A DNA stretch of 64,000 nucleotides, taken from positions 62,001 through 126,000 of the forward strand of contig NZ_REFV01000003.1 of NCBI RefSeq assembly GCF_003688895.1, read 5' to 3'. Shown here piece by piece: positions 1,171-63,519 of this stretch. A model generated the notes under the pieces. It had not been told where the DNA came from. It searched no databases and saw nothing but the letters and a program-made list of their open reading frames with translations. This stretch comes from Dokdonia sinensis (GTDB lineage Bacteria > Bacteroidota > Bacteroidia > Flavobacteriales > Flavobacteriaceae). The position numbers and the translations under genes were made by a program. Position 1 is the first letter of the stretch. Every line of letters starts with the position of its first letter.

Positions 1171-1186
1171 CGCTTTCGCGAAAGCA
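1171..1186. repeat. Dispersed palindrome copy 1
   Basis: CGCTTTCGCGAAAGCA, one mismatch at the right end. It lies just upstream of the GyrI-like gene, with a degenerate second copy (TTTCACGAAAGTGA) at about 1143-1156. Confidence 0.85.
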
Positions 1187-1201
1187 AAATGGATTATAAA
1201 A

Positions 1202-1228
1202 AAAGAGCAAGCACAATGCTCGCTCTTT
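1202..1228 (-). terminator. gltA intrinsic terminator
   Basis: On the minus strand AAAGAGCGAGCA pairs with TGCTTGCTCTTT (one G-U pair) around a 3-base loop, followed by a run of T. It lies 26 bases after the citrate synthase stop. Confidence 0.8.
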
Positions 1229-1253
1229 AATGAATAACTTTATACGTTCTGAT

Positions 1254-2540
1254 CTATCTTTTTGAAACTTCTTTGAATTCTCTAAAGTTTTCTCCGGTAT
1301 ACACTTGACGTGGACGACCTATAGGTTCTTTGTTTTCCCTCATCTCTTTCCATTGTGCTATCCATCCCGGAAGACGGCCTAAGGCAAACATTACCGTAAA
1401 CATCTCTACAGGTATGTCTAATGCTCGGTATATAATTCCAGAATAAAAATCTACATTAGGATACAACTTACGATCTACAAAATAAGAATCTTCCAGAGCT
1501 TCCTTCTCAAGACCTTTTGCGATATCAAGAACCGGGTCTTCGATTCCTAACTGATTTAAAACGTCATCTGCAGCAACTTTTATGATTTTTGCACGTGGGT
1601 CAAAATTCTTGTACACGCGGTGACCGAAGCCCATCAAACGGAAAGGATCTTCTTTATCCTTTGCCTTAGCCATATATTTTTTGGTATCGCCACCGTCTTC
1701 TTTAATACTTTCGAGCATCTCAATAACCGCCTGGTTTGCACCGCCGTGTAATGGTCCCCAAAGTGCACATATTCCAGAAGATATAGATGCAAATAGTCCC
1801 GCGTGTGATGACCCTACCATACGTACTGTACTTGTCGAACAGTTTTGCTCGTGGTCTGCGTGTAAGATGAGTAATTTATCTAAAGCGTCTATAACAGCTT
1901 TATCTACTTTGTATTCTTCATTAGGTTTTGCAAACATCATTTTGTGCAGATTCTCAACGTAGCCTAGCGAGTTATCGCCATAGTCAAGTGGCTGGCTTTT
2001 TTTCTTGCGCATAGCCCATGCAGCAAGAACAGGAAACTTAGCAAGTAATTTTACTATGGTCCTGTACATATCTTCTTCTGAATCTACATTTACCGAAGAT
2101 GGGTTGAAGGCTATAAGGGCAGACGTTAATGCGCTCAAAACACCCATAGGATGAGCTGATTTAGGAAAACCATCTAGGATTTTCTTCATGTCCTCGTCTA
2201 CGTGCGACTCAGCCTTAATGTCTTTATCAAATTTATCTAGTTGAACCTGAGTCGGAAGTTCTCCAAAAATCAATAGGTAAGCTACTTCTAAAAAGCTTGC
2301 TTTTTCTGCTAGTGCCTCAATAGCGTAACCACGGTAGCGCAAAATTCCTTCTTCACCGTCTAAAAAAGTAATTGCGCTCTGACAAGATCCAGTATTTTTA
2401 TAACCAGGATCAATTGTAGTGACACCTCCTGTTGCTCCTCTGAGCGTTTTGATATCTATTGCTCTCTCCTGCTCAGTTCCTGTAATGATAGGAAATTCAT
2501 AGCTCTGTCCGTCTATCGTTAGTGTCGCCTTGTCTGCCAT
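1254..2540 (-). CDS. gltA: Citrate synthase
   Basis: This 428-aa protein is a type II (hexameric, bacterial) citrate synthase, which condenses acetyl-CoA and oxaloacetate at the entry of the TCA cycle. The catalytic residues are all in place: His265 in WGPLHGGANQ, His307 in FGHRVY and Asp364 in PNVDFYSG. HADHEQN is at about residues 228-234. The length matches the family. It has its own terminator and sits downstream of a 730-base intergenic stretch that separates it from enolase, so it is probably a separate transcription unit. Confidence 0.97.
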   Translation of the reverse strand: MADKATLTIDGQSYEFPIITGTEQERAIDIKTLRGATGGVTTIDPGYKNTGSCQSAITFLDGEEGILRYRGYAIEALAEKASFLEVAYLLIFGELPTQVQLDKFDKDIKAESHVDEDMKKILDGFPKSAHPMGVLSALTSALIAFNPSSVNVDSEEDMYRTIVKLLAKFPVLAAWAMRKKKSQPLDYGDNSLGYVENLHKMMFAKPNEEYKVDKAVIDALDKLLILHADHEQNCSTSTVRMVGSSHAGLFASISSGICALWGPLHGGANQAVIEMLESIKEDGGDTKKYMAKAKDKEDPFRLMGFGHRVYKNFDPRAKIIKVAADDVLNQLGIEDPVLDIAKGLEKEALEDSYFVDRKLYPNVDFYSGIIYRALDIPVEMFTVMFALGRLPGWIAQWKEMRENKEPIGRPRQVYTGENFREFKEVSKR

Positions 2541-2681
2541 TCTCTTATTATCGTTTTATTGTGATTATCTTTTTTTGAGGAATGCTAAATTACGAAAAAA
2601 GAGTCGCTTTTATTAACATTTACCTACCACAGCAGGTTAAAAAAAGCTTAAAATGAATTTTCGTTTTATTCCATAAAAAAA

Positions 2682-2717
2682 GACTTGCACCATAGCACAA
2701 GCCTTTTTACCCAACTT
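2682..2717 (-). terminator. Hairpin unit B with upstream AAGTTGGGTAA box
   Basis: Reading the minus strand, AAGTTGGGTAA (2717-2707) is followed after three bases by GGCTTGTGC, loop TATG, GTGCAAGTC (stem with G-U pairs) and then seven T. It has the form of an intrinsic terminator. The T-run continues to about 2675. Confidence 0.6.
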
Positions 2718-2757
2718 CAAAATAAACTCCAGTCTCCTGAAGTATGTTTTTAAAAAA

Positions 2758-2807
2758 GAACGGGTGACTAACACAAGGTCAAACCGACCCGTTCTCTTAC
2801 CCAACTT
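2758..2807 (-). terminator. Hairpin unit A with upstream AAGTTGGGTAA box
   Basis: On the minus strand AAGTTGGGTAA (2807-2797) precedes a stem formed by 2787-2794 and 2758-2765 (ACCCGTTC with GAACGGGT), followed by CTTTTTT. It is the same layout as unit B, 90 bases away. Confidence 0.55.
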
Positions 2808-2916
2808 AAAATCGTCATTTACACTTGTTATAGCTCATGGTAATTCTAATTGCCGGGTATGAAGTCATTGAGAAGTGCGATTTCAAAAAAATTCGGGAGA
2901 GTGATCTTTTTTAGAT

Positions 2917-2930
2917 CGCTTTCGCGAAAG
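2917..2930. repeat. Dispersed palindrome copy 2
   Basis: CGCTTTCGCGAAAG followed by TA, intergenic, between the eno terminator and hairpin unit A. Confidence 0.8.
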
Positions 2931-3224
2931 TAAAACCAATATCAAATCGCAGTAGGTATTCTCTAAGCGACGTTCATAACATTTGGGATTAGAAAAGTAG
3001 CTAAAATGCTCACTTATACTGTTTTGTGTGTGTAATATTTTTCTTACTTATTAAAAAATAAAATACAACTATTTGATTATTAATTATTTAAATAAATAAA
3101 TTTTGTTGAAAACAATACTCCTAGAGGAACAAAAAGATACAAAAAGGAAGATTTCCATTAGAATAAACCAGTAAAACTTACATTTAAACAGGATCAAAAT
3201 GTCATTTGTCGTTGTTTTACATAA

Positions 3225-3252
3225 AAAAACCTCTCAATTCTGAGAGGTTTTT
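3225..3252 (-). terminator. eno intrinsic terminator
   Basis: A perfect 12-bp stem, AAAAACCTCTCA with TGAGAGGTTTTT, around a 4-base loop, flanked by A and T runs so that it could work in both directions. It begins 22 bases after the enolase stop. Confidence 0.9.
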
Positions 3253-3274
3253 AATAAATTTAAATAATCAGTTT

Positions 3275-4582
<1,308 letters not shown>

Positions 4583-4641
4583 TTATAAAGGTACAATATG
4601 TCTTATGTTCTTAGATAAAATGTGATGCGTAATCACGATAA

Positions 4642-4657
4642 CGTTTTCGCGAAAGCG
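4642..4657. repeat. Dispersed palindrome copy 3
   Basis: CGTTTTCGCGAAAGCG, one substitution in the left arm, between the carA terminator and eno. Confidence 0.8.
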
Positions 4658-4675
4658 TGACTATTTAAATAGAAA

Positions 4676-4697
4676 AACCTGATGTTTCCATCAGGTT
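4676..4697 (-). terminator. carA intrinsic terminator
   Basis: A 9-bp stem AACCTGATG / CATCAGGTT around TTTC. On the minus strand it is followed by TTTC and an AT-rich tail. It starts just after the carA stop at 4705. Confidence 0.85.
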
Positions 4698-4704
4698 CAA
4701 ATAA

Positions 4705-5817
4705 CTATGCTGTTACGCTTTTAATGTTGTCTATAAACTGGTCAAAAAGGTAGGTTGCATCATTAGGGCCAGGACTAGCCTCTGGATGATACTGCACAGA
4801 AAAACAATTTTTGTTTTTCATTCTAATTCCTGCAACAGTATGATCGTTAAGGTGTACATGTGTGATTTCAAGATCTGCATTTGCCTCTGTCTCCTCACGA
4901 TTAATGGCAAAACCGTGGTTCTGAGAAGTGACTTCACCCTTACCAGTAAGTAAATTCTTTATAGGATGATTAATTCCTCTATGCCCGTTGTGCATTTTGT
5001 AGGTAGAAATACCATTTGCTAGCGCAATTACTTGATGTCCCAGACAAATGCCAAAGAGCGGGTTGTCGTCTGCAATTATATCTTTTGCTACCTGTACAGC
5101 ATTTTCCAGCGGCTCTGGATCTCCAGGCCCGTTAGACAAAAAATAACCATCTGGATTCCACGATTTCATCTCTTGATAGGTGGTATCAAATGGAAAAACT
5201 TTAATGTACGTCCCACGCTTTGCAAGGTTGCGAAGTATATTACGCTTTATACCGATGTCCAAAGCAGCAATTTTAATAGGAGCATTCTCTTCTCCAAAAA
5301 AATAAGGTTCTTTTGTAGAAACTCTGGATGCAAGCTCAAGTCCATTCATACTGGGAACCTGGCTTAGTTCCTTTTTTAACACTTCAATATTATCGACCTC
5401 CGTAGAAATCACGGCGTTCATAGCTCCATTGTCTCTTATATAAGCTACCAAGGCACGTGTATCTACATCTGAAATTGCTAAGAGGTTATTCTTATTTAAG
5501 AATTCTTGTAACGACTCCTGAGCGCCCTGTCTTGAATATGTATAACTGAAGTTTCTACAAATTAATCCTGAAATTTTAACTCCATCTGATTCGGTTTCTT
5601 CATCTGTCGCACCGTAATTTCCGATGTGAGCATTTGTAGTTACCATGAGCTGACCAAAATAAGAAGGATCAGTAAAAATTTCCTGATACCCAGTCATTCC
5701 CGTATTGAAACAAACTTCCCCAAAAGAAGTTCCCTCTTTATTGCCTACAGATTTTCCGTGAAAAATAGTGCCGTCTGCAAGTAAGATAAGAGCTGGACGG
5801 TTAGATTGATATTTCAT
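4705..5817 (-). CDS. carA: Carbamoyl-phosphate synthase small subunit
   Basis: The 370-aa glutamine amidotransferase subunit supplies ammonia to CarB for carbamoyl phosphate, feeding pyrimidine and arginine synthesis. It has the N-terminal CPSase small-chain domain (FGEVCFNTGMTGYQE) and a class I amidotransferase domain. The catalytic triad is visible as Cys258 in FGICLGHQ with His344 and Glu346 in QYHPEASPG. carB is not next to it in this window. A TATTTTTG promoter element and the rplQ terminator lie just upstream, so it is transcribed separately from the ribosomal block although it follows it on the same strand. Confidence 0.97.
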   Translation of the reverse strand: MKYQSNRPALILLADGTIFHGKSVGNKEGTSFGEVCFNTGMTGYQEIFTDPSYFGQLMVTTNAHIGNYGATDEETESDGVKISGLICRNFSYTYSRQGAQESLQEFLNKNNLLAISDVDTRALVAYIRDNGAMNAVISTEVDNIEVLKKELSQVPSMNGLELASRVSTKEPYFFGEENAPIKIAALDIGIKRNILRNLAKRGTYIKVFPFDTTYQEMKSWNPDGYFLSNGPGDPEPLENAVQVAKDIIADDNPLFGICLGHQVIALANGISTYKMHNGHRGINHPIKNLLTGKGEVTSQNHGFAINREETEANADLEITHVHLNDHTVAGIRMKNKNCFSVQYHPEASPGPNDATYLFDQFIDNIKSVTA

Positions 5818-5860
5818 ATAAACATTCTAGTTTGAGTATTGCACCACATTAAATGTTGTA

Positions 5861-5868
5861 CAAAAATA
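5861..5868 (-). promoter_or_regulatory. Candidate -7 box of carA promoter
   Basis: On the minus strand TATTTTTG fits the Bacteroidota -7 consensus TANNTTTG exactly, 43 bases before the carA ATG and just past the rplQ terminator. No clear TTTG -33 element is at the expected distance. Confidence 0.4.
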
Positions 5869-5888
5869 ATTGATTTAATTACATAAAA

Positions 5889-5919
5889 AAAGGGATTTGC
5901 CTAAACGACAAATCCCTTT
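5889..5919 (-). terminator. Terminator of the ribosomal protein block
   Basis: An 11-bp stem AAAGGGATTTG / CAAATCCCTTT around nine bases, with seven T following on the minus strand. It lies 26 bases after the rplQ stop and ends the long str-S10-spc-alpha unit. Confidence 0.9.
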
Positions 5920-5944
5920 ATTATATTATTCTATGATGAAGTGA

Positions 5945-6409
5945 TTACTCTTCCTCATTGCTTGCAACTGGAGTTACTGGTGCGTCAGCTTTTTTACTTC
6001 TACCACGACGAGTAGATTTCTTCTTAGCTGGTTTACCTGCATTATAGATTTCATTGTAATCTACAAGCTCAATCATTGCCATATCTGCATTATCCCCTAG
6101 ACGATTACCTAGTTTGATAATACGTGTATATCCACCTGGACGATCTCCTATTTTTGCTGCAACATCTCTGAAAAGCTCTGTTACTGCATCCTTCTGACGA
6201 AGCTTTGCAAATACAATACGACGGTTATGAGTCGTATCTTCTTTTGACTTTGTAATCATAGGCTCTACAAATTGTTTAAGCGCTTTCGCCTTAGCAACTG
6301 TAGTATTAATTCTTTTATGTTCTATAAGAGAACAAGCCATATTTGCAAGCATAGACTTTCTGTGAGCAGTCTTTCTTCCTAAGTGGTTAAATTTCTTTCC
6401 GTGTCTCAT
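5945..6409 (-). CDS. rplQ: 50S ribosomal protein L17
   Basis: L17 (154 aa) opens with [21 protein letters not shown], the hallmark of the family, and lines the exit-tunnel region of the large subunit. The protein is longer than the E. coli form (127 aa). The extra C-terminal stretch is rich in Lys, Arg, Ala and Thr and ends in an acidic SNEEE; such tails are common in Bacteroidota. It is the last gene of the block, 103 bases after rpoA, with one palindrome copy in that gap, and is followed by a strong terminator. Confidence 0.97.
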
Positions 6410-6492
6410 GACATTTGGTTTTTAACATCATCTTGCTCAATCTGCCTCGTGCAGAGAGTAAAATATGATGTTTACTTAATATAATTATTTCT

Positions 6493-6510
6493 TACGCTTT
6501 CGCGAAAGCT
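6493..6510. repeat. Dispersed palindrome copy 4
   Basis: TACGCTTTCGCGAAAGCT in the rpoA-rplQ gap, two bases from the rpoA stop codon. Confidence 0.85.
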
Positions 6511-6512
6511 TA

Positions 6513-7505
6513 TTAATCCTTATCTAATTTATACTTCGCAAGATCCATTCCGAAGTTTAGACCTTTAACATTAACAAGTTCTTCAAGCTCAGTAAGTGAT
6601 TTTTTACCGAAGTTTCTAAACTTCATTAAATCATTTTTGTTGTAAGACACAAGATCTCCTAAAGTCTCAACTTCCGCAGCTTTAAGGCAGTTCAGCGCAC
6701 GAACCGAAAGGTCCATATCAATGAGTTTTGTCTTAAGCAATTGACGCATATGAAGCGATTCTTCATCATACGTCTCAGTTTGTGCAATCTCATCTGCCTC
6801 AAGCGTAATACGCTCATCAGAAAAGAGCATAAAGTGATGAATTAATGTTTTTGCCGCTTCAGTAAGAGCATCCTTAGGATGTATTGAACCGTCTGTTATA
6901 ATTTCAAAAACCAACTTTTCGTAATCAGTCTTTTGCTCAACACGGTAATTTTCAATACTGTATTTTACATTTCTTATAGGGGTATAAATAGAATCTGTAA
7001 AAATTGTGCCTAATGGTGCATTAGATTTTTTGTTTTCTTCTGCAGGGACATAACCTCTACCTTTTTCTATGGTAATTTCCATATTTAAATTTACCTTCTT
7101 GTCCATATTTGCCACCACAAGTTCAGGGTTAAGCACTTGGAATCCAGAAATAAATTTTTGAAAATCTCCAGCAGTAAGTTGATCAATACCAGAAAGTGAA
7201 ATAGTAACAGTTTCGTTATCTATCTCTTCTATCTGCCTTTTGAAACGTACTTGTTTAAGATTTAAGATGATTTCAGTTACATCTTCAACTACACCAGCCA
7301 ATGTAGAAAACTCGTGATCCACACCTTCAACACGTACTGAGGTAATTGCAAAACCTTCTAAAGACGAAAGTAAAACTCGTCTAAGAGCGTTTCCTACAGT
7401 TAACCCGTAACCTGGTTCTAAAGGTCTGAATTCGAATTTACCTTCAAAATCAGTAGAGTCAATCATAATGACTTTATCCGGTTTCTGGAAATTTAATATT
7501 GCCAT
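6513..7505 (-). CDS. rpoA: DNA-directed RNA polymerase subunit alpha
   Basis: At 330 aa this is a full-length alpha subunit. The N-terminal dimerisation and assembly domain shows [25 protein letters not shown] near residue 27. A linker leads to the C-terminal domain with the helix-hairpin-helix [15 protein letters not shown] near residue 290, which binds upstream DNA and activators. It is placed between rpsD (26-base gap) and rplQ as in most bacteria, and is expected to be co-expressed with the ribosomal proteins. Confidence 0.98.
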
Positions 7506-7531
7506 ATCGTGTTTTCTAGCTTTGGTTAATA

Positions 7532-8137
7532 TTATTTAGAATATAATTCGACGATGAACTGCTCGTTGATGTTTTCAGGGATCTGAAGACGTTGCGGAAC
7601 AGATACATAAGTCCCTTCTTTCTTATCGTTATTCCAAGTTATCCACTCGTATACGTGCGAAGCATTTTGTAGTGAATCTGAAATAGCTGTAAGAGATTTT
7701 GATTTTTCTCTAACTGCAATAACATCTCCTGGTTTAACAGCATAAGAAGGAATGTTTACTAGTTCACCATTTACAGTAATGTGACGGTGAGAAACTAACT
7801 GACGAGCACCTCTTCTAGATGAAGATATACCCATTCTATATACCACATTGTCTAAACGACCCTCACAAAGCTGAAGTAAAACCTCACCCGTAATTCCTGG
7901 GGCACGGTTTGCTTTGTCATAAAGGTTTCTGAACTGACGCTCTAGAATCCCATAAGTGTATTTTGCTTTTTGCTTTTCGGCCAACTGTATTGCGTATTCA
8001 GATTTCTTTCCTCTACGTCTGTTGTTACCGTGTTGTCCTGGAGGATAATTTCTTTTTTCAAAAGATTTATCTTCTCCAAAAATCGCTTCACCGAATTTAC
8101 GGGCGATTTTAGTCTTGGGACCAGTATATCTTGCCAT
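7532..8137 (-). CDS. rpsD: 30S ribosomal protein S4
   Basis: S4 (201 aa) is a primary 16S rRNA-binding protein that nucleates assembly of the 30S body. It shows the N-terminal [17 protein letters not shown] segment and the S4 RNA-binding domain ([31 protein letters not shown]) at about residues 93-125. In many bacteria S4 represses the alpha operon. The 90-base gap to rpsK upstream could hold a leader, though I see no recognisable structure there. Confidence 0.97.
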
Positions 8138-8227
8138 TTCTTAAGTTGTTTGTTAAAGGGGGTAAGGAATTAAGGTCAATCCTTCGCAAACCGTGCTCCC
8201 TTCAGATATTTATACTATTATAATTAA

Positions 8228-8611
8228 TTAAACGCGACGTCTCTTAGGTGGACGACATCCATTGTGTGGCATAGGTGTAACATCAATAATTTCTGTTACT
8301 TCTACTCCGCCATTATGAATTGCACGAATAGCCGACTCACGCCCGTTACCAGGTCCTTTCACATAAACCTTAACTTTACGTAAACCTGCTTCGTGAGCAA
8401 CCTTTACACATTCTTCCGCTGCTACCTGAGCTGCATAAGGAGTATTTTTCTTAGAACCTCTGAAACCCATTTTACCGGCAGATGACCAAGAGATTACATC
8501 TCCCTTTTTATTTGTTAAAGAGATAAGGATGTTGTTAAATGAAGCAGAAACGTGAGCTTCTCCTACAGACTCAACAACAACTTTACGTTTTTTTGCACTT
8601 TGCTTTGCCAT
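8228..8611 (-). CDS. rpsK: 30S ribosomal protein S11
   Basis: S11 (127 aa) lines the platform of the small subunit near the mRNA exit. The family ending [14 protein letters not shown] and the core [33 protein letters not shown] are intact. It follows rpsM after 11 bases. Confidence 0.97.
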
Positions 8612-8622
8612 TACTTCAGGTA

Positions 8623-8997
8623 TTATTTAGTTGCTTTCTTCTTGTTTGCAACAGTTTTACGTTTTCCTTTTCTAGTACGCGAGTTATTTTTAGTACGTTG
8701 TCCACGAAGTGGAAGACCCACACGGTGACGTATACCACGATAACAACCAATGTCCATAAGACGTTTGATGTTTAACTGAACTTCACTACGTAATTCACCT
8801 TCAATAGTGTAAGTACCTACTGCGTCACGTATACGACCAATTTCATCATCGTCCCAATCTGAAACTTTTTTACTCACGTCCACCTTTGCTTCTGCTAAGA
8901 TTTCTTGTGCTCTACTCTTTCCGATTCCAAAGATGTAAGTTAATGCAATTACACCTCTCTTTTGTTTTGGGATATCTATCCCTGCAATTCTAGCCAT
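8623..8997 (-). CDS. rpsM: 30S ribosomal protein S13
   Basis: S13 (124 aa) contacts tRNA and the large subunit from the head of the 30S. It starts with [26 protein letters not shown] and holds the [25 protein letters not shown] block with a basic tail that reaches the P site. It lies five bases after rpmJ in the spc-alpha junction. Confidence 0.97.
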
Positions 8998-9002
8998 AAC
9001 TA

Positions 9003-9119: not shown

Positions 9120-9137
9120 ATCAAGCTTATTTTCCGC

Positions 9138-10705: not shown

Positions 10706-10717
10706 CCTTGATGGGGT

Positions 10718-11170: not shown

Positions 11171-11184
11171 TTGTAATCTTTTAT

Positions 11185-11364: not shown

Positions 11365-11368
11365 CTTA

Positions 11369-11893: not shown

Positions 11894-11900
11894 AATTTTC

Positions 11901-12257: not shown

Positions 12258-12268
12258 TTCTCTATGTA

Positions 12269-13269: not shown

Positions 13270-13283
13270 GCTTTCGCGAAAGC
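13270..13283. repeat. Dispersed palindrome copy 5
   Basis: GCTTTCGCGAAAGC in the rpsN-rpsH gap; one of only three copies within the ribosomal block, all intergenic. Confidence 0.85.
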
Positions 13284-19672: not shown

Positions 19673-19696
19673 TTTACGCTTTCGCGAAAGCGTAAA
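19673..19696. repeat. Dispersed palindrome copy 6 (24-bp perfect)
   Basis: The longest perfect copy in the window: the 16-base core flanked by TTTA and TAAA, in the rpsJ-rplC gap six bases from the rpsJ stop. The arms could also form a hairpin in RNA. Confidence 0.9.
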
Positions 19697-23215: not shown

Positions 23216-24910
23216 TTGAAGGTTACTTACAACACTATTTTTGTCCTTATTACATATGCTATTTTTCTCCAAAGTTCAGAAGCACAAGAATTGAACTTGA
23301 AAATTTTAGGATATACAGATATTGAAACTGAGATTATTGATAGTCTTTCCTATCAGAGAAAACACCAAGAGTACCAGAGTATTTCTCAAACCATAGAAAA
23401 AGCCAAAAATGATCTCGTTGCTCTCGGATATTATGACACTAAAGAAATTGATCGTAAAAACTTTACCGATAACACCTACTCTGTACGATTGCACCTAGGA
23501 AATAGATTTAAAAGGATTATTCTCCTCATTGATGAACTTTCATCCTTACCATCGTATCTAAAAGGTACAGGCTACCCTATTCAAGAAAACTGGATTGATG
23601 TGGAGACCGCTTTCGCGAAAGCGTTACTAGAACAACTTACAATCATTGCGGCAAACAAAGGCAAACCGTTCTCATCGTTTCAAATACAAAATATATCAAA
23701 AAGGAACGACTCGATTTTGCAAGGAGAATTAAAAATAACAGAAGACACCATCCGAAACATAAATAACATAATCATCCAGGGATATGATAAAATGCCTATG
23801 TCATTTATAAAGAGATATGCAGGTCTTAAAAGTGGCACACTCTTTAATCGCCAGAAACTTTTAGAAAAACAGGAAGCGATTAACAATTTACCGTTTGTGA
23901 CCGTCAAAAAGGATTTGGAAATCCAGTTCACTAAGGACAGTACTAATGTATACTTATACCTCAACAAGCAACGCAATAATAGCTTTGATGGTTTTCTGGG
24001 GTTTTCTACAGATGAAACAAATAACCTGATACTCGACGGCTATTTAGATTTAGTTTTACGCAACAACCTTAACTATGGCGAATCTCTCATTCTGAATTAT
24101 AAAAGTGATGGGAACGACCAGTCCCAACTAAAGGTAAGCGCAGACCTCCCCTACCTTTTCGGCAGTCCGCTGGGGGTGAATGCAGAACTCTACCTTTTTA
24201 GAAAAGACACCACGTTTTCCGAAACTACACAACAAGCCTCCCTATATTATCAAGCTAGCCCGAGAATCAAGATCAATACAGGATACCAATATAAGACTTC
24301 TGATAATTTACTAGACATACCAGGCTTAACCTCAAATATTTCTGACTATACAAGCAATCGAGGTACTTTATCCCTCACTTACGCTGAATTAAGCTCTAAT
24401 GTACTTTTCCCAGAGCGCCGGTATTTTTTCGCTCAAGGCGAAATGGGACAACGAAACACAACCGATTTTTCCGAACAGCAGCTAAGTTTTCTTACCGTCG
24501 CGCGGAACATCTTTAAACTTAATGATACGAATGCGGTATACATTCAATCTGCCACGCAAATACTATTTTCCGACTCGTTTGTAACAAATGAGCTTTACCG
24601 TTTTGGGGGCATCACAAGCATTCGAGGTTTTGAAGAAAACAGCATTTTTGCAAACCTATTTTCTGTTTTGAATACCGAGTACCGTTATACTATTAACCCA
24701 GGCCTATATGTCCATAGCATTCTGGACGTTGCTTATTTTGAAAACGAGCTTATAGATGCCGAAAATGAATTGATAAGCTTTGGTTTTGGTGCAGGTTTAA
24801 ACACCAAAGCGGGTCTCTTTAAAATCAATATTGCAAACGGAAAGAGCGATGGGCAAGAATTCAAGTTTTCCAACACTAAAGTGCATTTGCAATTACAAGC
24901 TAAATTTTAA
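23216..24910 (+). CDS. Omp85-superfamily outer-membrane protein
   Basis: This 564-aa protein begins with a signal peptide (about 24 residues, ending SSEAQE). An N-terminal periplasmic part with POTRA-like stretches follows, then a beta-barrel with FGGITSIRGFEENS near residue 463, matching the conserved RGF/Y loop of the Omp85/BamA/TamA family. It ends in ...LQAKF with the terminal Phe usual for barrels inserted by BAM. It may export or insert a dedicated substrate, but this is not determined. The start must be TTG at 23216, since the signal peptide begins there and no ATG fits. One palindrome copy inside the gene is read as AFAKAL in the periplasmic part. Confidence 0.8.
   Translation: MKVTYNTIFVLITYAIFLQSSEAQELNLKILGYTDIETEIIDSLSYQRKHQEYQSISQTIEKAKNDLVALGYYDTKEIDRKNFTDNTYSVRLHLGNRFKRIILLIDELSSLPSYLKGTGYPIQENWIDVETAFAKALLEQLTIIAANKGKPFSSFQIQNISKRNDSILQGELKITEDTIRNINNIIIQGYDKMPMSFIKRYAGLKSGTLFNRQKLLEKQEAINNLPFVTVKKDLEIQFTKDSTNVYLYLNKQRNNSFDGFLGFSTDETNNLILDGYLDLVLRNNLNYGESLILNYKSDGNDQSQLKVSADLPYLFGSPLGVNAELYLFRKDTTFSETTQQASLYYQASPRIKINTGYQYKTSDNLLDIPGLTSNISDYTSNRGTLSLTYAELSSNVLFPERRYFFAQGEMGQRNTTDFSEQQLSFLTVARNIFKLNDTNAVYIQSATQILFSDSFVTNELYRFGGITSIRGFEENSIFANLFSVLNTEYRYTINPGLYVHSILDVAYFENELIDAENELISFGFGAGLNTKAGLFKINIANGKSDGQEFKFSNTKVHLQLQAKF
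23608..23623. repeat. Dispersed palindrome copy 7 (inside the Omp85 gene)
   Basis: Perfect 16-base core, read in frame as part of TAFAKAL at about residues 130-137. Confidence 0.9.
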
Positions 24911-32045: not shown

Positions 32046-32783
32046 GCCTTCAGTATCATTCAGCTTAGATTCTTTGTACTCATAATGTATCTCTACTTCT
32101 TCTAATGGTTCTTCAGGTTCTATTTCGATAAAATTTCCATTTTCGTCAAACTGTTTCATAAAAGGATCATCTTCGGCATTGTAATCTGGTTTTTCCCAAA
32201 TATATTTTGCAGGCAATGGTACGCTTTCGCGAAAGCGGAATGCTAACAACAACCCCGCAATCAAACCTGCTAAATGACCTTCCCAAGATACTCCAGCTTT
32301 GATAGGTAAGGCACCCCAAATAAGGCCACCATATAAAAAAACTACTACGAGTGAGAGCGCTATAAGTCGATAATGCTTCGCAAAAATCCCCTTAAAAAAA
32401 AGAAAAGAAACCAAACCATAAATAATACCGCTCATCCCAATATGATAGGACGGTCGTCCCAACAACCATGTCCCCAAACCACTTAAGATTAAAATCCAGA
32501 ACAATACCGCCCAGGAAATCTTTTTGTAGAAATAAAATAGGGCCATAGCAAGCACAAAAATGGGAATTGTATTGTGCCAAAGATGAGTGACTCCTGAATG
32601 TATAAATGGCGAAAAAAATATACCGCGCAATCCTTTAACAGTCTGCGGTCTTACTCCATAGGTCGTAAAATCTACATGAAATGTAACCTCCACCCACATT
32701 ACTGTCCATATAACAAGGACAAACAACAGTGGATATAGGACAACACCATAGTAAAACGGAAATGATTCTTCTTCTCTAGACAT
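32040..32783 (-). CDS. Rhomboid-family intramembrane serine protease
   Basis: A 247-aa inner-membrane protein with about six hydrophobic segments. The catalytic pair is visible: Ser118 in HIGMSGIIYG and His170 in WEGHLAGLIAG. HLWHN near residues 67-71 matches the conserved His/Asn of the oxyanion helix. A long acidic cytoplasmic tail (from about residue 195) follows the last membrane segment. One palindrome copy is read as RFRESV (183-188), exactly at the membrane-tail junction. The gene converges on rlmB with overlapping stops. Confidence 0.9.
   Translation of the reverse strand: MSREEESFPFYYGVVLYPLLFVLVIWTVMWVEVTFHVDFTTYGVRPQTVKGLRGIFFSPFIHSGVTHLWHNTIPIFVLAMALFYFYKKISWAVLFWILILSGLGTWLLGRPSYHIGMSGIIYGLVSFLFFKGIFAKHYRLIALSLVVVFLYGGLIWGALPIKAGVSWEGHLAGLIAGLLLAFRFRESVPLPAKYIWEKPDYNAEDDPFMKQFDENGNFIEIEPEEPLEEVEIHYEYKESKLNDTEGL
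32222..32237. repeat. Dispersed palindrome copy 8 (inside the rhomboid gene)
   Basis: Perfect core, read on the minus strand as FRFRES, the third possible reading frame of the palindrome. Confidence 0.9.
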
Positions 32784-38960: not shown

Positions 38961-39662
38961 TTACAGTATGCCTTCATCGGCAAAGCTAAAATACGTCTTT
39001 TCGGTTACAATAATGTGGTCCAGGACTTTGATATCAAGACTCTCGCCTGCTGTTTTGAGTTTTTGGGTAATTTGCCTGTCAGCCTGACTGGGTTTTAAAG
39101 TTCCAGAGGGGTGGTTATGCCCCAGCACGATAGCAACTGCTCCTAGCTCTAGCGCTGTCTTAAGTGCGAGACGTACATCCACAAGTGTTCCCGTGATACC
39201 TCCTTTGCTCAATTGCTTTTTATCAAGAACCTTGTTCGAATTATTGAGATAAATAACCCAAAATTCCTCGTGTGCAAGGTCGCCTATGATAGGTTGTAAA
39301 ATGCTATAAGCGGTTTCACTTGAAGAAATACGCTTTCGCGAAAGCGTATCACCACCACTTCTCCTCCTCCCAAGTTCAAGCGCCGCGGCAATACTTACAG
39401 CTTTTGCCTCTCCTATCCCCTTAAACTTCATCAAGTCCTTAATAGTAAGCTTTCCCAGTTCCATCAAGTTATTCTCTACCGAAGCAAGAATGCGCTTGCT
39501 TAGACTCACAGCACTCTCATTACGACTGCCAGACCCTATTAATATGGCTATTAGTTCTGCATCGCTAAGTGCTGTTCTTCCCTTATTGAGTAGTTTCTCG
39601 CGGGGGCGGTCATCTTCTGACCAGTTTTTAATAGAAAAGGATTGCGGTAATTCTTCTGACAT
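38961..39662 (-). CDS. radC: RadC-family JAB/MPN domain protein
   Basis: The 233-aa protein has an N-terminal helix-hairpin-helix part (LMKFKGIGEAKAVSIAAALELGRR) and a C-terminal JAMM metalloprotease-like domain with HNHPSG at residues 182-187 and Asp195. The name is historical; a DNA-repair role has been questioned and the family function is unsettled. The start is the ATG at 39662 (MSEELPQSFSIKNWSEDDRPREKL); the frame extends 27 codons further but without family likeness. A palindrome copy is read as DTLSRKRIS at about 105-113, in the linker between the two domains. Confidence 0.92.
   Translation of the reverse strand: MSEELPQSFSIKNWSEDDRPREKLLNKGRTALSDAELIAILIGSGSRNESAVSLSKRILASVENNLMELGKLTIKDLMKFKGIGEAKAVSIAAALELGRRRSGGDTLSRKRISSSETAYSILQPIIGDLAHEEFWVIYLNNSNKVLDKKQLSKGGITGTLVDVRLALKTALELGAVAIVLGHNHPSGTLKPSQADRQITQKLKTAGESLDIKVLDHIIVTEKTYFSFADEGIL
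39328..39349. repeat. Dispersed palindrome copy 9 (inside radC)
   Basis: 22-bp perfect palindrome, core extended by ATA/TAT, read as TLSRKRI on the minus strand. Confidence 0.9.
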
Positions 39663-40346: not shown

Positions 40347-41000
40347 TCAAACCGTTACTGCTTCCCGAAGATACCTTCTAAATGGCAACATCTCCTTGTA
40401 TACTTCAACAATATAATCCTCAAAATCTGTTGCGAGTACACGCTTTCGCGAAAGCGTAACCTCAACGGCAAATGTTTTATGACGCAATAGATTGATATGA
40501 GGATGGTCTTGAGAATATCCCTTAGGGGCAGTCTTGAGTTTTTCATCTTGATAAAGACCTCCAAAGGTTTTTTGAAAACTTGGCTTGTCTATAATCGCTT
40601 GTAATTCCTCTCCATTGTAATCTATAGCGCTCCGTATACTTTCAAGTATTTCCTTTTTGGGACGCCAGTAACCTCCAGCGAGCAAGTTTTGCTTGAGGCC
40701 TATCTCAATGTAAAAATCACCTTGCTTCGTTTTTTGGTCCAATCCCGCCCCAAAGTGATCCTTATAAATAGGTTTATTAGGATGGAACATTAAATTGTTG
40801 TTTATCCTGTTGATGGCCTTCTTTCCAGGAGTATCAAAGTACTCTTTATCTATTTTAGCAAATTTCTGGTTGAGCCTATCTAGCCAGTCTATATGTGCAT
40901 CACGAATGTCGTGATATTCCCTGCGATGGGCATCCATCCACTCTTTTGAATTATTGTTTTGGAGCTGTTCTAAAAATTGATAAAGCGATTGAAAGTGCAT
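40347..41000 (-). CDS. DUF2461 (TIGR02453) family protein
   Basis: A 217-aa protein beginning FLEQLQNNNSKEWMDAHRREYHDIRD with the family block INRINNNLMFHPNKPIYKDHFGAGLDQ and GDFYIEIGLKQNLLAGGYW. The family is common in Bacteroidota and of unknown function. One palindrome copy is read as VTLSRKRVL at about residues 180-188. Confidence 0.88.
   Translation of the reverse strand: MHFQSLYQFLEQLQNNNSKEWMDAHRREYHDIRDAHIDWLDRLNQKFAKIDKEYFDTPGKKAINRINNNLMFHPNKPIYKDHFGAGLDQKTKQGDFYIEIGLKQNLLAGGYWRPKKEILESIRSAIDYNGEELQAIIDKPSFQKTFGGLYQDEKLKTAPKGYSQDHPHINLLRHKTFAVEVTLSRKRVLATDFEDYIVEVYKEMLPFRRYLREAVTV
40440..40457. repeat. Dispersed palindrome copy 10 (inside DUF2461 gene)
   Basis: 18-bp perfect palindrome ACGCTTTCGCGAAAGCGT, read as TLSRKRV. 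Confidence 0.9.
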
Positions 41001-44180: not shown

Positions 44181-44194
44181 GCTTTCGCGAAAGC
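44181..44194. repeat. Dispersed palindrome copy 11
   Basis: GCTTTCGCGAAAGC between fabD and the PNPOx-like gene, next to the terminator of the latter. Confidence 0.85.
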
Positions 44195-45842: not shown

Positions 45843-46913
45843 ATGAAAAATTTTAAGAAAGTATTCCCGATTCTCCAGCAATACACCTACCTCAATACCG
45901 CCGCGTCTGGACTATTACCCACTCCCGTTATGGAGTGGCGACAGGAACACGACCTCGACTTTTTAGTGGGTGGCAGTATGCTCAAGGAGAAGCAGGGGAA
46001 AATACTTTCTGGAGTGCGCGAGAAAGTAGGAAAGCTTTTTGGTTGCCTGCCGGAGCGTGTGGCGCTGGTTCCTAATTTCTCCTATGGTTTTAACACTCTA
46101 GTTGAAGGGCTGGAAGGTTCAGAAAAGGTATTGTTGCTGGAGCAAGATTACCCTTCGGTGAACTGGCCGTTCACGTCACGGGGATTTGATGTGCGTTACG
46201 TTTCTATAACTGAGAAAGTGGAGGATGATATTGAGGCCGCTTTCGCGAAAGCGCAACCCCACATATTTGCATTTTCATTAGTGCAATGGCTCAACGGGAT
46301 AAAACTGGATCAAGAATTTCTAAAAAGTTTAAAAAGCAAATACCCCGACACCCTCTTCATTGCCGATGGAACTCAATATATGGGAACTGAGGTTTTTGAC
46401 TTTGACAACTCGGCAATAGATGCTCTGGGGGCGAGCACCTATAAATGGATGAATGCCGGCTACGGCAACGCCTTTTTCCTTTTTAAAAAACAAGTAGCCG
46501 AAAAAGTAGGCGCACAAACCACTGGGTTTAATGCCTTGCAAGGGAAATACAAGCCACAAGAGGGAAGTTTTTTAGGGCGCTTTGAACCAGGACATCAAGA
46601 CACATTAAACTACGGAAGTCTGGGTGAAGCAATTGATTTAATCAACCAAATAGAGCTGGAAACCATCCAATCAAAAATCGCAACACTCGCCACGAGTGCA
46701 AAAGAAGCCTTTGCCGAAAGAGGTTTAATAGACTCCGCAATCACAAATCGAAAAAACCACAGCAGTATTTTTAATATAAAAGGGGATGAAGCGCTCGTTC
46801 AAAAATTAAGGACAGAAGACATCATCGTTATTGCTCGAGGGGAAGGCGTGCGGGTAAGTTTTCATTACTTCAATACGGAAGATGATTTAAACAGATTACT
46901 GTCTTTTTTATAG
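45843..46913 (+). CDS. Class V aminotransferase-fold PLP enzyme
   Basis: A 356-aa PLP-dependent enzyme of the cysteine desulfurase-like group: TYLNTAASGLLP at the start, DGTQYMGTEVFDF with the PLP-binding Asp175, and Lys201 in GASTYKWMNAGYGNAF. No active-site Cys loop typical of desulfurases is seen, so an aminotransferase, lyase or epimerase is as likely. The ATG at 45843 was chosen; ten upstream codons have no family likeness. A palindrome copy is read as AAFAKAQ at about 132-138, between two structural elements. Confidence 0.85.
   Translation: MKNFKKVFPILQQYTYLNTAASGLLPTPVMEWRQEHDLDFLVGGSMLKEKQGKILSGVREKVGKLFGCLPERVALVPNFSYGFNTLVEGLEGSEKVLLLEQDYPSVNWPFTSRGFDVRYVSITEKVEDDIEAAFAKAQPHIFAFSLVQWLNGIKLDQEFLKSLKSKYPDTLFIADGTQYMGTEVFDFDNSAIDALGASTYKWMNAGYGNAFFLFKKQVAEKVGAQTTGFNALQGKYKPQEGSFLGRFEPGHQDTLNYGSLGEAIDLINQIELETIQSKIATLATSAKEAFAERGLIDSAITNRKNHSSIFNIKGDEALVQKLRTEDIIVIARGEGVRVSFHYFNTEDDLNRLLSFL
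46238..46253. repeat. Dispersed palindrome copy 12 (inside the class V aminotransferase gene)
   Basis: Perfect core, read as AFAKA on the plus strand, as in the Omp85 gene. Confidence 0.9.
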
Positions 46914-49301: not shown

Positions 49302-49319
49302 CCGCTTTCGCGAAAGCGG
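49302..49319. repeat. Dispersed palindrome copy 13
   Basis: 18-bp perfect version with C/G ends (CCGCTTTCGCGAAAGCGG), 12 bases before the heptamer array. Confidence 0.9.
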
Positions 49320-54796: not shown

Positions 54797-54818
54797 TTAC
54801 GCTTTCGCGAAAGCGTAA
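54797..54818. repeat. Dispersed palindrome copy 14
   Basis: 22-bp perfect palindrome (core flanked by TTA/TAA) in the era-terB divergent gap. Confidence 0.9.
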
Positions 54819-55899: not shown

Positions 55900-55915
55900 T
55901 TTCGCGAAAGCGTAA
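55900..55915. repeat. Dispersed palindrome copy 15 (left arm decayed)
   Basis: TTTCGCGAAAGCGTAA with CCTT in place of the left arm, in the divergent gap between the SpoU and sigma-factor genes. Confidence 0.75.
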
Positions 55916-57044: not shown

Positions 57045-57823
57045 TTTTTAGACTTAGGACGTTCAAAACAATTTACAAGCATCTCGTACAATTCGGGATG
57101 CTTTCTTTTAAACAAGTCTGGACGCTCAAAGAAATATTCTGAGGCTACGGCAAAAAACTCAGCTTGGTTTGTGGCGCCGTATTTTCTTATATCGCTCTCA
57201 TCATTATTGATACGTTCCATCTCGCGGTGCATCAGTGACAGCCAGGGCTCAATATAGCGATGTTCTAATAGTCGTTCAGGAATACCATCAGTATCACCGT
57301 CTAATTTATCTAGTAAATGCACAAATTCGTGTACGGCAGTATTGCCTTTATCGGTAGCATTTGAAAAACCGTGGTATAATGCTTTGCGCGAAAGTATCAT
57401 CTGGTTCTCAAACTGCCCTGTTCCTACCATCCCGGCAATACGCCGTTTAGGATCATCCTTATTAAAACCTAGATCTTCATTAAAGTGGCCCGGATAAATC
57501 AAAACCGTCTCCAGATTATCATATACCCAATCCCCAAAATTAAATATAGGAATCACCGCACTCGCCGAAACCAGCATCCTATCCTTATCCGTAAGTTCAA
57601 ATTGTACGGCCTCGACATTAATTTCGGCGAGAAAAGCCATCATTCGGTTTTGAAAAATGACTTTATCCTTTTCATCGAGCTTTCGGTAAAAGAGGACTTC
57701 TTTCTCTAGTACGGGTTTCCATTGAGAAGGGAAATGTTTTTGAGGACGCTTTCGCGAAAGCTTAATAAAACCAAACACCATTAACCCCAAAAGTCCAATA
57801 CCTAAAATAGAAAATACTATCAT
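57041..57823 (-). CDS. MtfA-family zinc-dependent peptidase (M90)
   Basis: A 260-aa protein with one N-terminal membrane helix (1-20) and an M90 domain: VSASAVIPIFNF, TAVHEFVHLLDKLDGDTDGIP with HEFVH at 165-169, and the third ligand Glu222 in ATNQAEFFAVASEYFFERP. In E. coli MtfA binds the Mlc repressor and has aminopeptidase activity; here the protein is membrane-anchored, so that role need not apply. A palindrome copy is read as KLSRKRPQ (21-28), exactly between helix and domain. Confidence 0.9.
   Translation of the reverse strand: MIVFSILGIGLLGLMVFGFIKLSRKRPQKHFPSQWKPVLEKEVLFYRKLDEKDKVIFQNRMMAFLAEINVEAVQFELTDKDRMLVSASAVIPIFNFGDWVYDNLETVLIYPGHFNEDLGFNKDDPKRRIAGMVGTGQFENQMILSRKALYHGFSNATDKGNTAVHEFVHLLDKLDGDTDGIPERLLEHRYIEPWLSLMHREMERINNDESDIRKYGATNQAEFFAVASEYFFERPDLFKRKHPELYEMLVNCFERPKSKN
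57748..57761. repeat. Dispersed palindrome copy 16 (inside the MtfA-like gene)
   Basis: GCTTTCGCGAAAGC, read as LSRKR on the minus strand, at the junction of membrane helix and catalytic domain. Confidence 0.88.
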
Positions 57824-59413: not shown

Positions 59414-59429
59414 TTACGCTTTCGCGAAA
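59414..59429. repeat. Dispersed palindrome copy 17 (right arm decayed)
   Basis: TTACGCTTTCGCGAAA then AT-rich sequence; the left arm is intact. It lies just after the Pmp3-type gene. Confidence 0.7.
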
Positions 59430-61776: not shown

Positions 61777-61794
61777 ATTTTCGCGAAAGCGAAA
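61777..61794. repeat. Dispersed palindrome copy 18 (diverged ends)
   Basis: AATTTTCGCGAAAGCGAA; core TTTCGCGAAAGC kept, left arm changed. Confidence 0.75.
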
Positions 61795-61838
61795 ACTAAA
61801 AATTGTATCAAAACCTCTGATTTTGAAAAGACACCACA

Positions 61839-61880
61839 ACACATCACAGGTGCGGAATTAATTCCGCACCTGTGATGTGT
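61839..61880. repeat. 42-bp perfect palindrome
   Basis: Arms beginning ACACATCACAGGTGCGGAAT, centre TTAA. It can form a 19-20 bp stem in RNA between the convergent GIN-lipoprotein and glycosyltransferase genes, but no T-run follows on either side. Confidence 0.9.
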
Positions 61881-61894
61881 AAAATAATGTGATT

Positions 61895-62608
61895 TTAAGA
61901 AACCTTTCTCCTATAATACGCCAGCAAATCCTCTGCACTCGCACCAAACCATTTACGCACATAAATACTCCAGAAGTAATATTGTAATTTCCAAACGCCG
62001 TTCTCATCGTAGCGTCTTGCACTGGTGGTAAGCCATTCCTGAATGACTACAAACTTACGTCTTGCGTAGAGTTTATTAATAAGGTCATTATCCTCATAAA
62101 TAATGTAGCGTTCGTCAAAGGTGCCGAGCTCTTCAAAAAGTACTTTAGTAATAAACTGGCTCTGATCGCCACCGCGACAGGCCCGCCATCTAAATTGGGT
62201 AAGCCACCCAGCCAGTCGTAACCACCAATGGTTTGAGTCAAATTTCATCTTAAAACAACCTGCTGGATTCCCAGCAACTACCTGCTCGATGATGTATTTG
62301 TCAAAGTTTTTTGGCGGATAAGAATCTGCGTGAAGGAAATATAGAATGTCGCCTGTGGCTTGGTGTGCTCCAGCATTCATTTGGACGGCACGACCTTTAT
62401 TAGACGCAATAGATTGTACAACAATGTCGCTTCGGTTGAGGAAGAAGCTTACTTTATCCGTCGTGTTATCTGAGCTTCCACCGTCTACGACTATGATTTC
62501 GGCAAAGTTTGCTTTCGCGAAAGCGGAATCACACAAATGTTGCAACAACGAGGATATCGTTTCTGCTTCATTAAGTACTGGAATTACTACCGAAATACGG
62601 TGTTTCAT
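61895..62608 (-). CDS. Family 2 glycosyltransferase, TIGR04283 type
   Basis: A 237-aa GT-A glycosyltransferase: ISVVIPVLNEAETISSLLQHL, IIVVDGGSSDNTTD with the nucleotide-binding Asp, NKGRAVQMNAGAHQATGDILYFLHADSYPP with the metal-binding HAD motif, RGGDQSQFI and YEDNDLINKLYARRKF. The layout agrees with the TIGR04283 subgroup, which in some bacteria lies with arsenosugar genes; no arsenic gene is seen here. A palindrome copy is read as SAFAKANF (28-35), as an extra loop before the first Rossmann strand IIVVDGG. Confidence 0.88.
   Translation of the reverse strand: MKHRISVVIPVLNEAETISSLLQHLCDSAFAKANFAEIIVVDGGSSDNTTDKVSFFLNRSDIVVQSIASNKGRAVQMNAGAHQATGDILYFLHADSYPPKNFDKYIIEQVVAGNPAGCFKMKFDSNHWWLRLAGWLTQFRWRACRGGDQSQFITKVLFEELGTFDERYIIYEDNDLINKLYARRKFVVIQEWLTTSARRYDENGVWKLQYYFWSIYVRKWFGASAEDLLAYYRRKVS
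62511..62524. repeat. Dispersed palindrome copy 19 (inside the glycosyltransferase gene)
   Basis: GCTTTCGCGAAAGC, read as AFAKA on the minus strand. Confidence 0.88.
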
Positions 62609-62669
62609 AAAATAAGCAACCTAGGTTAGACAAACATACGCAAAAACCAAAGGGCTAGTTTTGTATACA

Positions 62670-63470
62670 CTACTGTTTATTAAGTCCCCAATCGTATTCC
62701 TTGAAGGTCACCGGGGCGTCTAAACGCGCTTTGGTATCTGAATACGTGTTCACATAAGGAATTAAACTCTCATTCCCGTTAATGTAAAAATCCTTGGTAT
62801 AAAATTTAAAGATGGAGGAAAGCTCGGCTTTGTCCTCAGTAATCGTGTTTTTGTCGCAATTTATAAATTCTGTTGTGGCTTTATCTAACTGTTCATTTAT
62901 TTTCCCAGCCGTGTATGCTTCCCGCAATAATGGCGGACAAGAAATGGAAGCGCAATTGATAGCAAAATGAATACGCGGTTCATTCATCTTGCGCAGGATT
63001 CCATTCTCAATCCCGCCTAGAGAGAGTTCGCGATTGCCCACTTTTGCACGGCCTTTTGTCCACGGTCCATCTATATCTTTTATGCTTTTTACATTGGGGT
63101 TATCTAAAATTAAGTCTATAGTCACCGCGTTGTAGAGGTTTATATAGTAGGCGAGTAACTCCTGCACGCTCCAGTCATTATTGGGATCTAACTCGGCAAG
63201 TTGGTTTAAATATCCTTCCAAGAGTGTTCTATCTTCCGTAAATCCGTCATAATCTACCAATCCTTGTGCATTCACGTGCTTTTTCAGCAAACTGTCAAAC
63301 TGCGAGTGGTCTACATTTACTGCCGAATTTGCGGTGGTTGAAGTAAGCGGTTGTGTAACCTCTTTAGTGGGTTGTCCTTGTGAGATGATCCCGCCGGCAG
63401 AGAGGACGGCGCAACTTTGGACCGTATAAGTGATGAGTAGAATTGAAAAGAATCGTAGTATATTTTTCAT
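62670..63470 (-). CDS. DUF547 protein, copy 1 (secreted)
   Basis: A 266-aa protein with a signal peptide that ends near TVQSCAVLS; Cys20 in this segment could make it a lipoprotein. The DUF547 domain follows: FDSLLKKHVNAQGLVDYDGF, WSVQELLAYYINLYNAVTIDLILDNPNVKSIKDI and RIHFAINCASISCPPLLREAYTAGKINEQLDKATTEFIN. The Cys/His pattern resembles a papain-like or transglutaminase-like fold, but the function is unknown. ATG 63470 is preferred over upstream starts that lie across a palindrome copy (ESAFAKAY). The second DUF547 gene lies just upstream. Confidence 0.9.
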   Translation of the reverse strand: MKNILRFFSILLITYTVQSCAVLSAGGIISQGQPTKEVTQPLTSTTANSAVNVDHSQFDSLLKKHVNAQGLVDYDGFTEDRTLLEGYLNQLAELDPNNDWSVQELLAYYINLYNAVTIDLILDNPNVKSIKDIDGPWTKGRAKVGNRELSLGGIENGILRKMNEPRIHFAINCASISCPPLLREAYTAGKINEQLDKATTEFINCDKNTITEDKAELSSIFKFYTKDFYINGNESLIPYVNTYSDTKARLDAPVTFKEYDWGLNKQ

Positions 63471-63503
63471 TATGGTCATATTGATTGGGCTAAATATAGG
63501 GTA

Positions 63504-63519
63504 CGCTTTCGCGAAAGCG
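63504..63519. repeat. Dispersed palindrome copy 20
   Basis: Perfect 16-base core in the gap between the two DUF547 genes. Confidence 0.9.

Follow-up and report, generated by a model that had tools for sequence, protein, structure and literature searches.

This report concerns a ten-letter palindrome, TTTCGCGAAA, that recurs along a 64,000-base stretch of the Dokdonia sinensis genome (positions 62,001 to 126,000 of contig NZ_REFV01000003.1; hereafter the window). The window holds a ribosomal block, the genes for RNA polymerase alpha and EF-G, and genes encoding POTRA-domain, rhomboid, RadC, DUF2461, acyl transferase and class V aminotransferase proteins, and the palindrome lies both within and between genes. 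There are 20 exact copies, compared with 0.10 expected (standard deviation 0.30), and none of 100 shuffles reached this number. A first-pass annotation of the same DNA had reported about 20 copies where well under one was to be expected, and both statements agree with the computed values; its positions are correct to within ~7 bases and mark flanking letters. It had also divided the copies into 19 and one variant, which corresponds to the 19 of 20 that continue as TTTCGCGAAAG and the single copy that does not. The 16-letter word in its title was too long for most copies: the ten-letter core is present in all 20 and the full 16-mer is complete in only 9. CTTTCGCGAAAG is contained in 16 of the 20 copies and GCTTTCGCGAAAGC in 15, and GC arms flank the core on both sides in 15. 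The sites are listed below with a dot for the strand throughout; ORF denotes an open reading frame, and the peptides encoded at the coding sites are AFAKA, LSRKR and RFRES.

Site 1: 1174..1183, strand., core TTTCGCGAAA; intergenic (reached only by an ORF with a TTG start)
Site 2: 2920..2929, strand., intergenic; of 4 relatives, 2 have it exactly, 1 lacks it and 1 is scored as lost (cut segment)
Site 3: 4645..4654, strand., intergenic; of 5 relatives, 3 have it exactly, 1 has it with one mismatch and 1 lacks it
Site 4: 6498..6507, strand., intergenic, next to the gene for RNA polymerase alpha; of 5 relatives, 1 has it exactly and 4 lack it
Site 5: 13272..13281, strand., intergenic; exact in all 5 relatives
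Site 6: 19680..19689, strand., intergenic, past a 101-amino-acid ORF after EF-G; arms TTACGC...GCGTAA; exact in 4 of 5 relatives, one mismatch in 1 of 5
Site 7: 23611..23620, strand., inside the POTRA-domain gene, AFAKA; exact in 3 of 3 aligned relatives
Site 8: 32225..32234, strand., inside the rhomboid gene, RFRES; exact in all 5 relatives
Site 9: 39334..39343, strand., inside radC, LSRKR; exact in all 5 relatives; no gaps in the alignment with site-free genera
Site 10: 40444..40453, strand., inside the DUF2461 gene, LSRKR; no relatives aligned
Site 11: 44183..44192, strand., at the TTG 5' end of the acyl transferase ORF; probably intergenic
Site 12: 46241..46250, strand., inside the class V aminotransferase gene, AFAKA
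Site 13: 49306..49315, strand., intergenic
Site 14: 54803..54812, strand., intergenic; arms TTACGC...GCGTAA
Site 15: 55900..55909, strand., at the GTG 5' end of an ORF
Site 16: 57750..57759, strand., inside an ORF, LSRKR
Site 17: 59420..59429, strand., intergenic; the sole window copy without a following G
Site 18: 61779..61788, strand., intergenic
Site 19: 62513..62522, strand., inside an ORF, AFAKA
Site 20: 63507..63516, strand., near the GTG 5' end of an ORF, AFAKA

For the first-pass annotation, confinement to this window or a genome-wide frequency near expectation would have counted against the observation. Neither is the case, as TTTCGCGAAA occurs 1107 times in the 3,647,482 bases of the D. 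sinensis genome (43 contigs), or about once per 3.3 kb, and the reversed word, used as a control, occurs 15 times in the whole genome. The palindrome signal is real and genome-wide, and it is much stronger than in the window alone. It is also abundant in genomes of two further genera of the family, denoted g26 and g206.

Architecture of the extended site

In all three genera the TTTCGCGAAA core is the center of a symmetric site that spans about 50 bp and has G-poor outward flanks. From the core outward, on both sides alike, the Dokdonia sites show GCG, then T, A and A, followed by G-poor positions up to about position 20. Between 5 and 20 positions out from the core, G/(G+C) amounts to 0.207 for Dokdonia (655 G and 2505 C), 0.342 for g206 (208 G and 400 C) and 0.242 for g26 (67 G and 210 C). 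It rises to 0.437, 0.496 and 0.428 at positions 21-40 and to 0.496, 0.505 and 0.529 at positions 100-200 in Dokdonia, g206 and g26, respectively. The ten control palindromes, with 0-7 copies each, do not allow individual comparison; the commonest gives a G/(G+C) of 0.505. The skew is equal in genic and intergenic sites, and we have no explanation for its direction beyond recognition by a putative protein. The outward positions 4, 7, 10, 13 and 16 favor T and positions 6, 9, 12 and 15 favor A, intergenic sites included, which hints at a possible period of 3.

Several properties of the sites indicate the form in which they are read. In 248 sites with GC arms the two halves vary independently, with arm position 3 paired in 192 sites compared with 191.1 expected, and beyond the fixed GC arms no column out to position 27 exceeds a covariation z of 1.6. 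True left and right flanks fold less stably than swapped pairs (-7.00 versus -7.37 kcal/mol, z +3.3, 60 swaps), and true pairs are again less stable when only the distal parts are swapped (z +4.6). Four single sites folded more stably than their shuffles (z -2.3 to -5.4), as any palindrome would. A function as a hairpin, a cruciform or an RNA predicts covariation and more stable true pairs and the opposite was seen, so that this class of function was rejected, with the fixed GC arms lying beyond the test. Given halves that do not covary and extended hairpins that are not favored, double-stranded DNA is probably the form that is read.

The core is strict. With GC arms present there are 359 exact copies and 24 copies with one mismatch, and 11 of these 24 carry a C-to-T change at the outer C of the core, which could be either a tolerated variant or a methylated base that deaminates. 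Outside the full sites the shorter words contained in the core show no enrichment: TCGCGA was seen 174 times versus 177.3 expected (ratio 0.98), TTCGCGAA 10 times versus 19.6 (0.51), and CGCG at 0.99 of expectation. By contrast with these, longer half words are over-represented outside the sites, from 1.6-fold for GCGAAAGC up to 5-fold for GCGAAAGCG (17 versus 3.4), and decayed sites may be a partial cause.

These counts bear on the proposal that an orphan DNA methyltransferase creates and maintains the palindrome, perhaps together with methyl-directed repair, in the manner of the cyanobacterial highly iterated palindrome HIP1 (GCGATCGC). Both are highly iterated palindromes, the Dokdonia word has a CGCG core, and the C-to-T variants would suit a methylated cytosine. 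The Dokdonia site is however longer than HIP1, extending over about 50 bp with skewed flanks, and is evenly spaced; the HIP1 word itself is not over-represented (4 versus 7.3 expected). Because the inner core expected of a methylase target stands at or below expectation outside full sites, this mechanism, which was among the interpretations offered in the first-pass annotation, is disfavored and we regard it as improbable. A word search of a HIP paper (PMC4390886) found no Bacteroidota, flavobacteria or TTTCGCG.

Spacing, genic placement and conservation

The sites are evenly spaced. For 97 sites in 340 kb of D. sinensis the coefficient of variation of the gaps is 0.59 compared with 1.02 in 5000 simulations in which the coding and intergenic site counts were held fixed. 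No gap is shorter than 600 bp, where 17.2 were expected, and two are shorter than 1 kb, where 25.5 were expected and no simulation gave so few. Twenty 20-kb stretches of the single-contig chromosome of a second genome, G016, contain 5-9 sites each with a variance-to-mean ratio of 0.22 (lower-tail chi-square 1.3e-4), and the ratio for twenty D. sinensis stretches is 0.43 (0.016). No regional concentration was apparent by eye in the 20 G016 stretches, for which the origin was not located and no formal trend test was made.

The deficit that the first-pass annotation described in the ribosomal block of the window is visible as site gaps of 6.8 and 6.4 kb, but elsewhere in the genome gaps reach 11.7 kb. 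The two longest site-free gaps in the 340 kb (C1:139869-151428 and 263362-275091) contain catabolic genes (GH109, GHMP kinase, SSF transporter and glutaminase) as well as curli genes. Long gaps of this kind fit a slow accumulation of sites in accessory DNA, with two cases only.

When genes were called crudely, as ORFs of at least 90 codons starting with ATG, 71 of 139 sites in a D. sinensis sample were found inside genes, though genes make up 87% of the sample; with G016 included, the count is 153 of 296. The genic sites are unequally divided among the three reading phases (76, 45 and 32). The two genomes disagree over the gaps between convergent genes, which have the fewest sites in D. sinensis (0.72 per kb, 7 sites, versus 1.25 and 1.21) and the most in G016 (2.96 per kb, 12 sites, versus ~1.5 elsewhere).

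Enrichment between genes, and the high density in G016 convergent gaps, would be expected if the palindrome were a bidirectional transcription terminator or the operator of a global regulator. The D. sinensis convergent gaps are the poorest, however, and half of all sites lie inside genes. A terminator is further disfavored by flanks that are rich in A and C rather than T, by the missing covariation, and by the fact that none of the 6 sites in positions 1-20000 of the window overlaps any of 30 terminator-like hits; we consider this class of explanation very unlikely. A separate terminator-like hairpin (4675-4698) adjoins site 3.

The first-pass annotation had proposed a comparison of orthologous loci in relatives, and this comparison shows strong retention. 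Six syntenic stretches of 64-68 kb contain 96 sites, and for 65 of these one or more of the other genomes matched the flanks on both sides; sites near the ends of the stretches or with unmatched flanks were dropped. In 270 directed comparisons, in which each genome pair is counted both ways and mean flank identities are 77-93%, the palindrome is retained exactly in 220, with one mismatch in 22, and is lost in 28, where retention means a copy anywhere between the anchors with 40 bases added on each side. At least one of the 28 losses is artefactual: for site 2 (2920) against genome G006 the compared segment stops within the matching stretch. The intergenic losses fall in poorly alignable DNA with insertions and deletions. 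Past EF-G, at a distance similar to that of site 6, a site is also found in one g26 genome and in the g206 genome.

The coding sites can be compared with homologues from site-free genera. Among the matches listed, the rhomboid site aligns without gaps (FRKQ versus FRES), as does the RadC site (LERKK versus LSRKR), and the POTRA rows are mostly ungapped, some having a short gap upstream of the site. The g206 rhomboid likewise encodes FRES at the site position, and a protein search for site-free homologues of the DUF2461 protein gave no matches. We propose from these alignments that coding sites would arise in place by point mutation and would then be retained.

Distribution among genomes, islands and phage contigs

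The palindrome is restricted to particular lineages. In a set of 39 genomes the 12-letter form has 383-937 copies in all 18 Dokdonia genomes and 0-1 in the other 21. Among 397 genomes of the family, six are rich in the 14-letter form and these are spread over three genera: two Dokdonia (857 and 903 copies), three g26 (578, 664 and 609) and one g206 (408), the other 391 having 0-19. Among 395 genomes drawn from the phylum, of which D. sinensis is the sole member of the three site-rich genera, only D. sinensis has more than 2 copies of the 16-letter form. In a multi-gene tree with uneven gene coverage g26 lies apart from Dokdonia and g206 lies inside Dokdonia, and Dokdonia pacifica, source of the best named match to a window protein, groups with genomes of the same genus, as does a Dokdonia metagenome-assembled genome that was also among the 80 matches kept. 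A tree of the EF-G gene (20020-22149 of the window, with orthologues) splits both Dokdonia and g26, which suggests gene exchange or poor resolution, and because of these splits it was set aside for species history. No comparably over-represented palindrome of 8 or 10 letters was found in the pooled loci of eight other groups (41-429 kb each); the same test on two Dokdonia-type pools recovered TTTCGCGAAA at once.

In three site-poor genomes the few copies are clustered. All 16 copies of the 14-mer in G108 lie on one contig within 78 kb, and 18 of 19 copies in G318 (C4 and C5) and 16 of 17 in G083 (C6 and C98) lie on two contigs each. The G108 stretch (C3, ~31-117 kb; L358-L362) matches G318:C5 (L365-L368) and G083:C6 (L363-L364) at 83-99% identity. 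Twenty proteins scanned from it include metal-type P-ATPases, parts of RND efflux systems and a multicopper oxidase, as well as a strawberry-notch-type helicase, N6 methylases and a serine recombinase. This mobile-looking metal-resistance island, shared between genera, has a site density near that of Dokdonia in genera that are otherwise site-poor; the 86 kb of it in G108 contain the 10-mer 20 times. From the clustering of copies in this shared island we infer that sites may arrive with DNA from site-rich hosts and hardly multiply on their own.

The alternative in which sites do multiply on their own is that they are mobile palindromes of the repetitive extragenic palindromic (REP/REPIN) type, copied by a REP-associated tyrosine (RAYT, or Y1) transposase. 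REP elements are likewise abundant short palindromes, and the high copy number and intergenic enrichment would suit them; the Y1_Tnp family (PF01797) is matched in the D. sinensis genome (1 weak match, E 1e-5) and in all three g26 genomes. It is unmatched, however, in 7 of 8 Dokdonia genomes and in the g206 genome (G222), and, among the matches listed, the rhomboid and RadC sites show no insertion or deletion and hence no insertion of a unit. Island-borne sites have barely spread beyond the island, neither hairpin selection nor arm covariation was detected, and half of the sites are genic. With the transposase missing from most Dokdonia genomes, the rhomboid and RadC sites ungapped, the arms without covariation and this genic share, the REP/RAYT explanation was rejected as highly improbable. 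A word search of the main text of a 2025 REP survey (PMC12306157) found no Dokdonia or TTTCGCG.

Viral contigs also carry the palindrome. A scan for the 14-mer gave at least 120 stretches with 105 distinct sites. The 34 sites on low-GC pieces (<0.42) have a flank G/(G+C) of 0.366, some of them being related copies of one place and hence not independent, and the other 71 have 0.514. The flanks of these 71 are without skew, and they are probably chance occurrences. Several low-GC pieces (including L163, L167, L172, L180 and L181) carry 2-3 sites in 11-14 kb, and several have one site in common with the same flank. Among ten proteins scanned from these low-GC pieces, one contig encodes a baseplate hub and a transposase family and another encodes an integrase; three proteins match families without known function and four match none. 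The low-GC pieces may be temperate phages of site-rich hosts.

Candidate functions of the site

Uptake codes that span the genome are known from two families of proteobacteria, the Pasteurellaceae and the Neisseriaceae. Of the known systems, the palindrome most resembles the uptake signal sequence (USS) of Haemophilus and the DNA uptake sequence (DUS) of Neisseria, in copy number, spacing, coding share, lineage restriction and presence on probable phage contigs. USS and DUS are reported to have 1471 and 1965 copies and to be genic and intergenic, lineage-restricted and underrepresented in constrained coding DNA (PMC7811141, PMC1939737, PMC6776037). Their shares in ORFs are 65% and 35%, and Karlin noted their even spacing (PMC1939737); their relatively even distribution has been ascribed to molecular drive (PMC7811141), and temperate phages accumulate them (PMC6776037). 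Like them, the palindrome lies in and between genes and is depleted in genes (71 of 139 sites genic versus 87% coding). Its hosts, unlike those of USS and DUS, are Bacteroidota.

The explanation that we tentatively favor, with slightly less than even confidence, is that the palindrome is a lineage-specific self-recognition signal, most likely for sequence-biased DNA uptake or exchange. More tentative still is a specific form of this explanation, in which a palindromic, two-fold-symmetric uptake or self-recognition code, consisting of a double-stranded site of about 50 bp read by a receptor other than a pilin, would occur in at least two separate flavobacterial lineages of the Bacteroidota and would be maintained by molecular drive. 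The signal would consist of TTTCGCGAAA with its GC(G) arms and, on each side, an outward flank of about 20 bp that is poor in G, and a putative protein would bind it two-fold symmetrically as double-stranded DNA. Copies would arise in place by point mutation where genes tolerate them and would then stay. An uptake or recombination receptor would prefer DNA fragments with one site, and because of this preference site-bearing alleles would spread through the population by molecular drive, as proposed for the Haemophilus USS. The binding protein, its dimeric state and DNA uptake as the process are what we infer from this pattern. An uptake signal and a protein-binding site had both been suggested in the first-pass annotation, and both survive in view of the even spacing, the conservation of position, the symmetric extended site, the independent half-sites and the phage contigs.

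The main rival is that the palindrome is bound by an abundant dimeric protein of the cytosol with a role in chromosome organization, segregation or repair (nucleoid-associated or Chi-like), and that selection makes it recur every few kb. The dyad symmetry is better explained in this way than by an uptake signal, and the strict core, the independent half-sites, the strong retention in orthologues and the even spacing at similar density in 20 stretches round one chromosome would all be expected; sites on phage contigs would suit a protective self mark. Chi sites have a comparable density of one per few kb, but they are oriented and non-palindromic, unlike the dyad with symmetric flanks described here. 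Phages and the patchy distribution are explained less well than by an uptake signal, as presence in only some genera of one family requires the gain or loss of a chromosome-wide organizer. The 5-9 sites per 20 kb all round G016, by eye without regional concentration, also speak against an organizer, and no candidate protein was found. We regard a chromosome-organizing site as rather unlikely, while giving it appreciable weight; if correct, such a site would stand out for its density and even spacing.

If the palindrome is a true uptake code, the Bacteroidota evolved one independently, with dyad geometry and probably with different machinery, since the transformation genes reported for Riemerella comprise some for surface proteins that differ from the well-known machinery (PMC8459023). 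The molecular-drive origin of uptake sequences would then be testable in a third group, and the palindrome would mark phages and islands that resided in these hosts. The even spacing, the ungapped alignment to site-free genera, the orthologue retention, the symmetric site of about 50 bp and the independent halves are new here. The 12- and 14-mers are not printed in the literature searched, which leaves out most subscription papers. The 11-mer occurs once, within a gene construct, and none of the papers on Dokdonia and palindromes concerns the site, in each case as far as the available text extends. The Bacteroidetes LexA motifs in the available portion of PMC8565304 are different words.

Several observations weigh against an uptake signal. 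USS and DUS are not palindromes (PMC1939737), whereas the Dokdonia word is a palindrome with mirror-image skewed flanks, and at about one per kb (PMC7811141) they are about three times denser than one per 3.3 kb. Uptake sequences show a gradual ladder of mismatches (PMC1939737), and the fall from 359 exact copies to 24 with one mismatch is steeper. Confinement to the G108 island is not strict, with 2 further 10-mers in the 54 kb beside it. No support for transformability of Dokdonia was found in the literature, none of the 10 papers listed out of 1,048 naming the genus. The cognate uptake receptor of Neisseria is of the type IV pilin type. In the present genomes no receptor was identified through ComEC or DUF5689, and pilins were not searched for. 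Riemerella, which PMC8459023 places in the Flavobacteriaceae, is reported there to use ComEC and DprA for transformation, along with surface proteins specific to the family. ComEC is present in all 26 genomes surveyed (14 site-rich and 12 site-poor), which is in keeping with an uptake signal except that the site-poor genomes have it as well. DUF5689, a domain of a Riemerella transformation surface protein, is present in 24 of 25 and is not discriminating. As a receptor, DUF5689 was rejected by its gene tree, in which the site-rich genera do not form one clade and the D. sinensis protein lies apart from its genus. On this tree the site label requires 4 changes compared with a mean of 8.3 when shuffled, with 1 of 500 shuffles as low.

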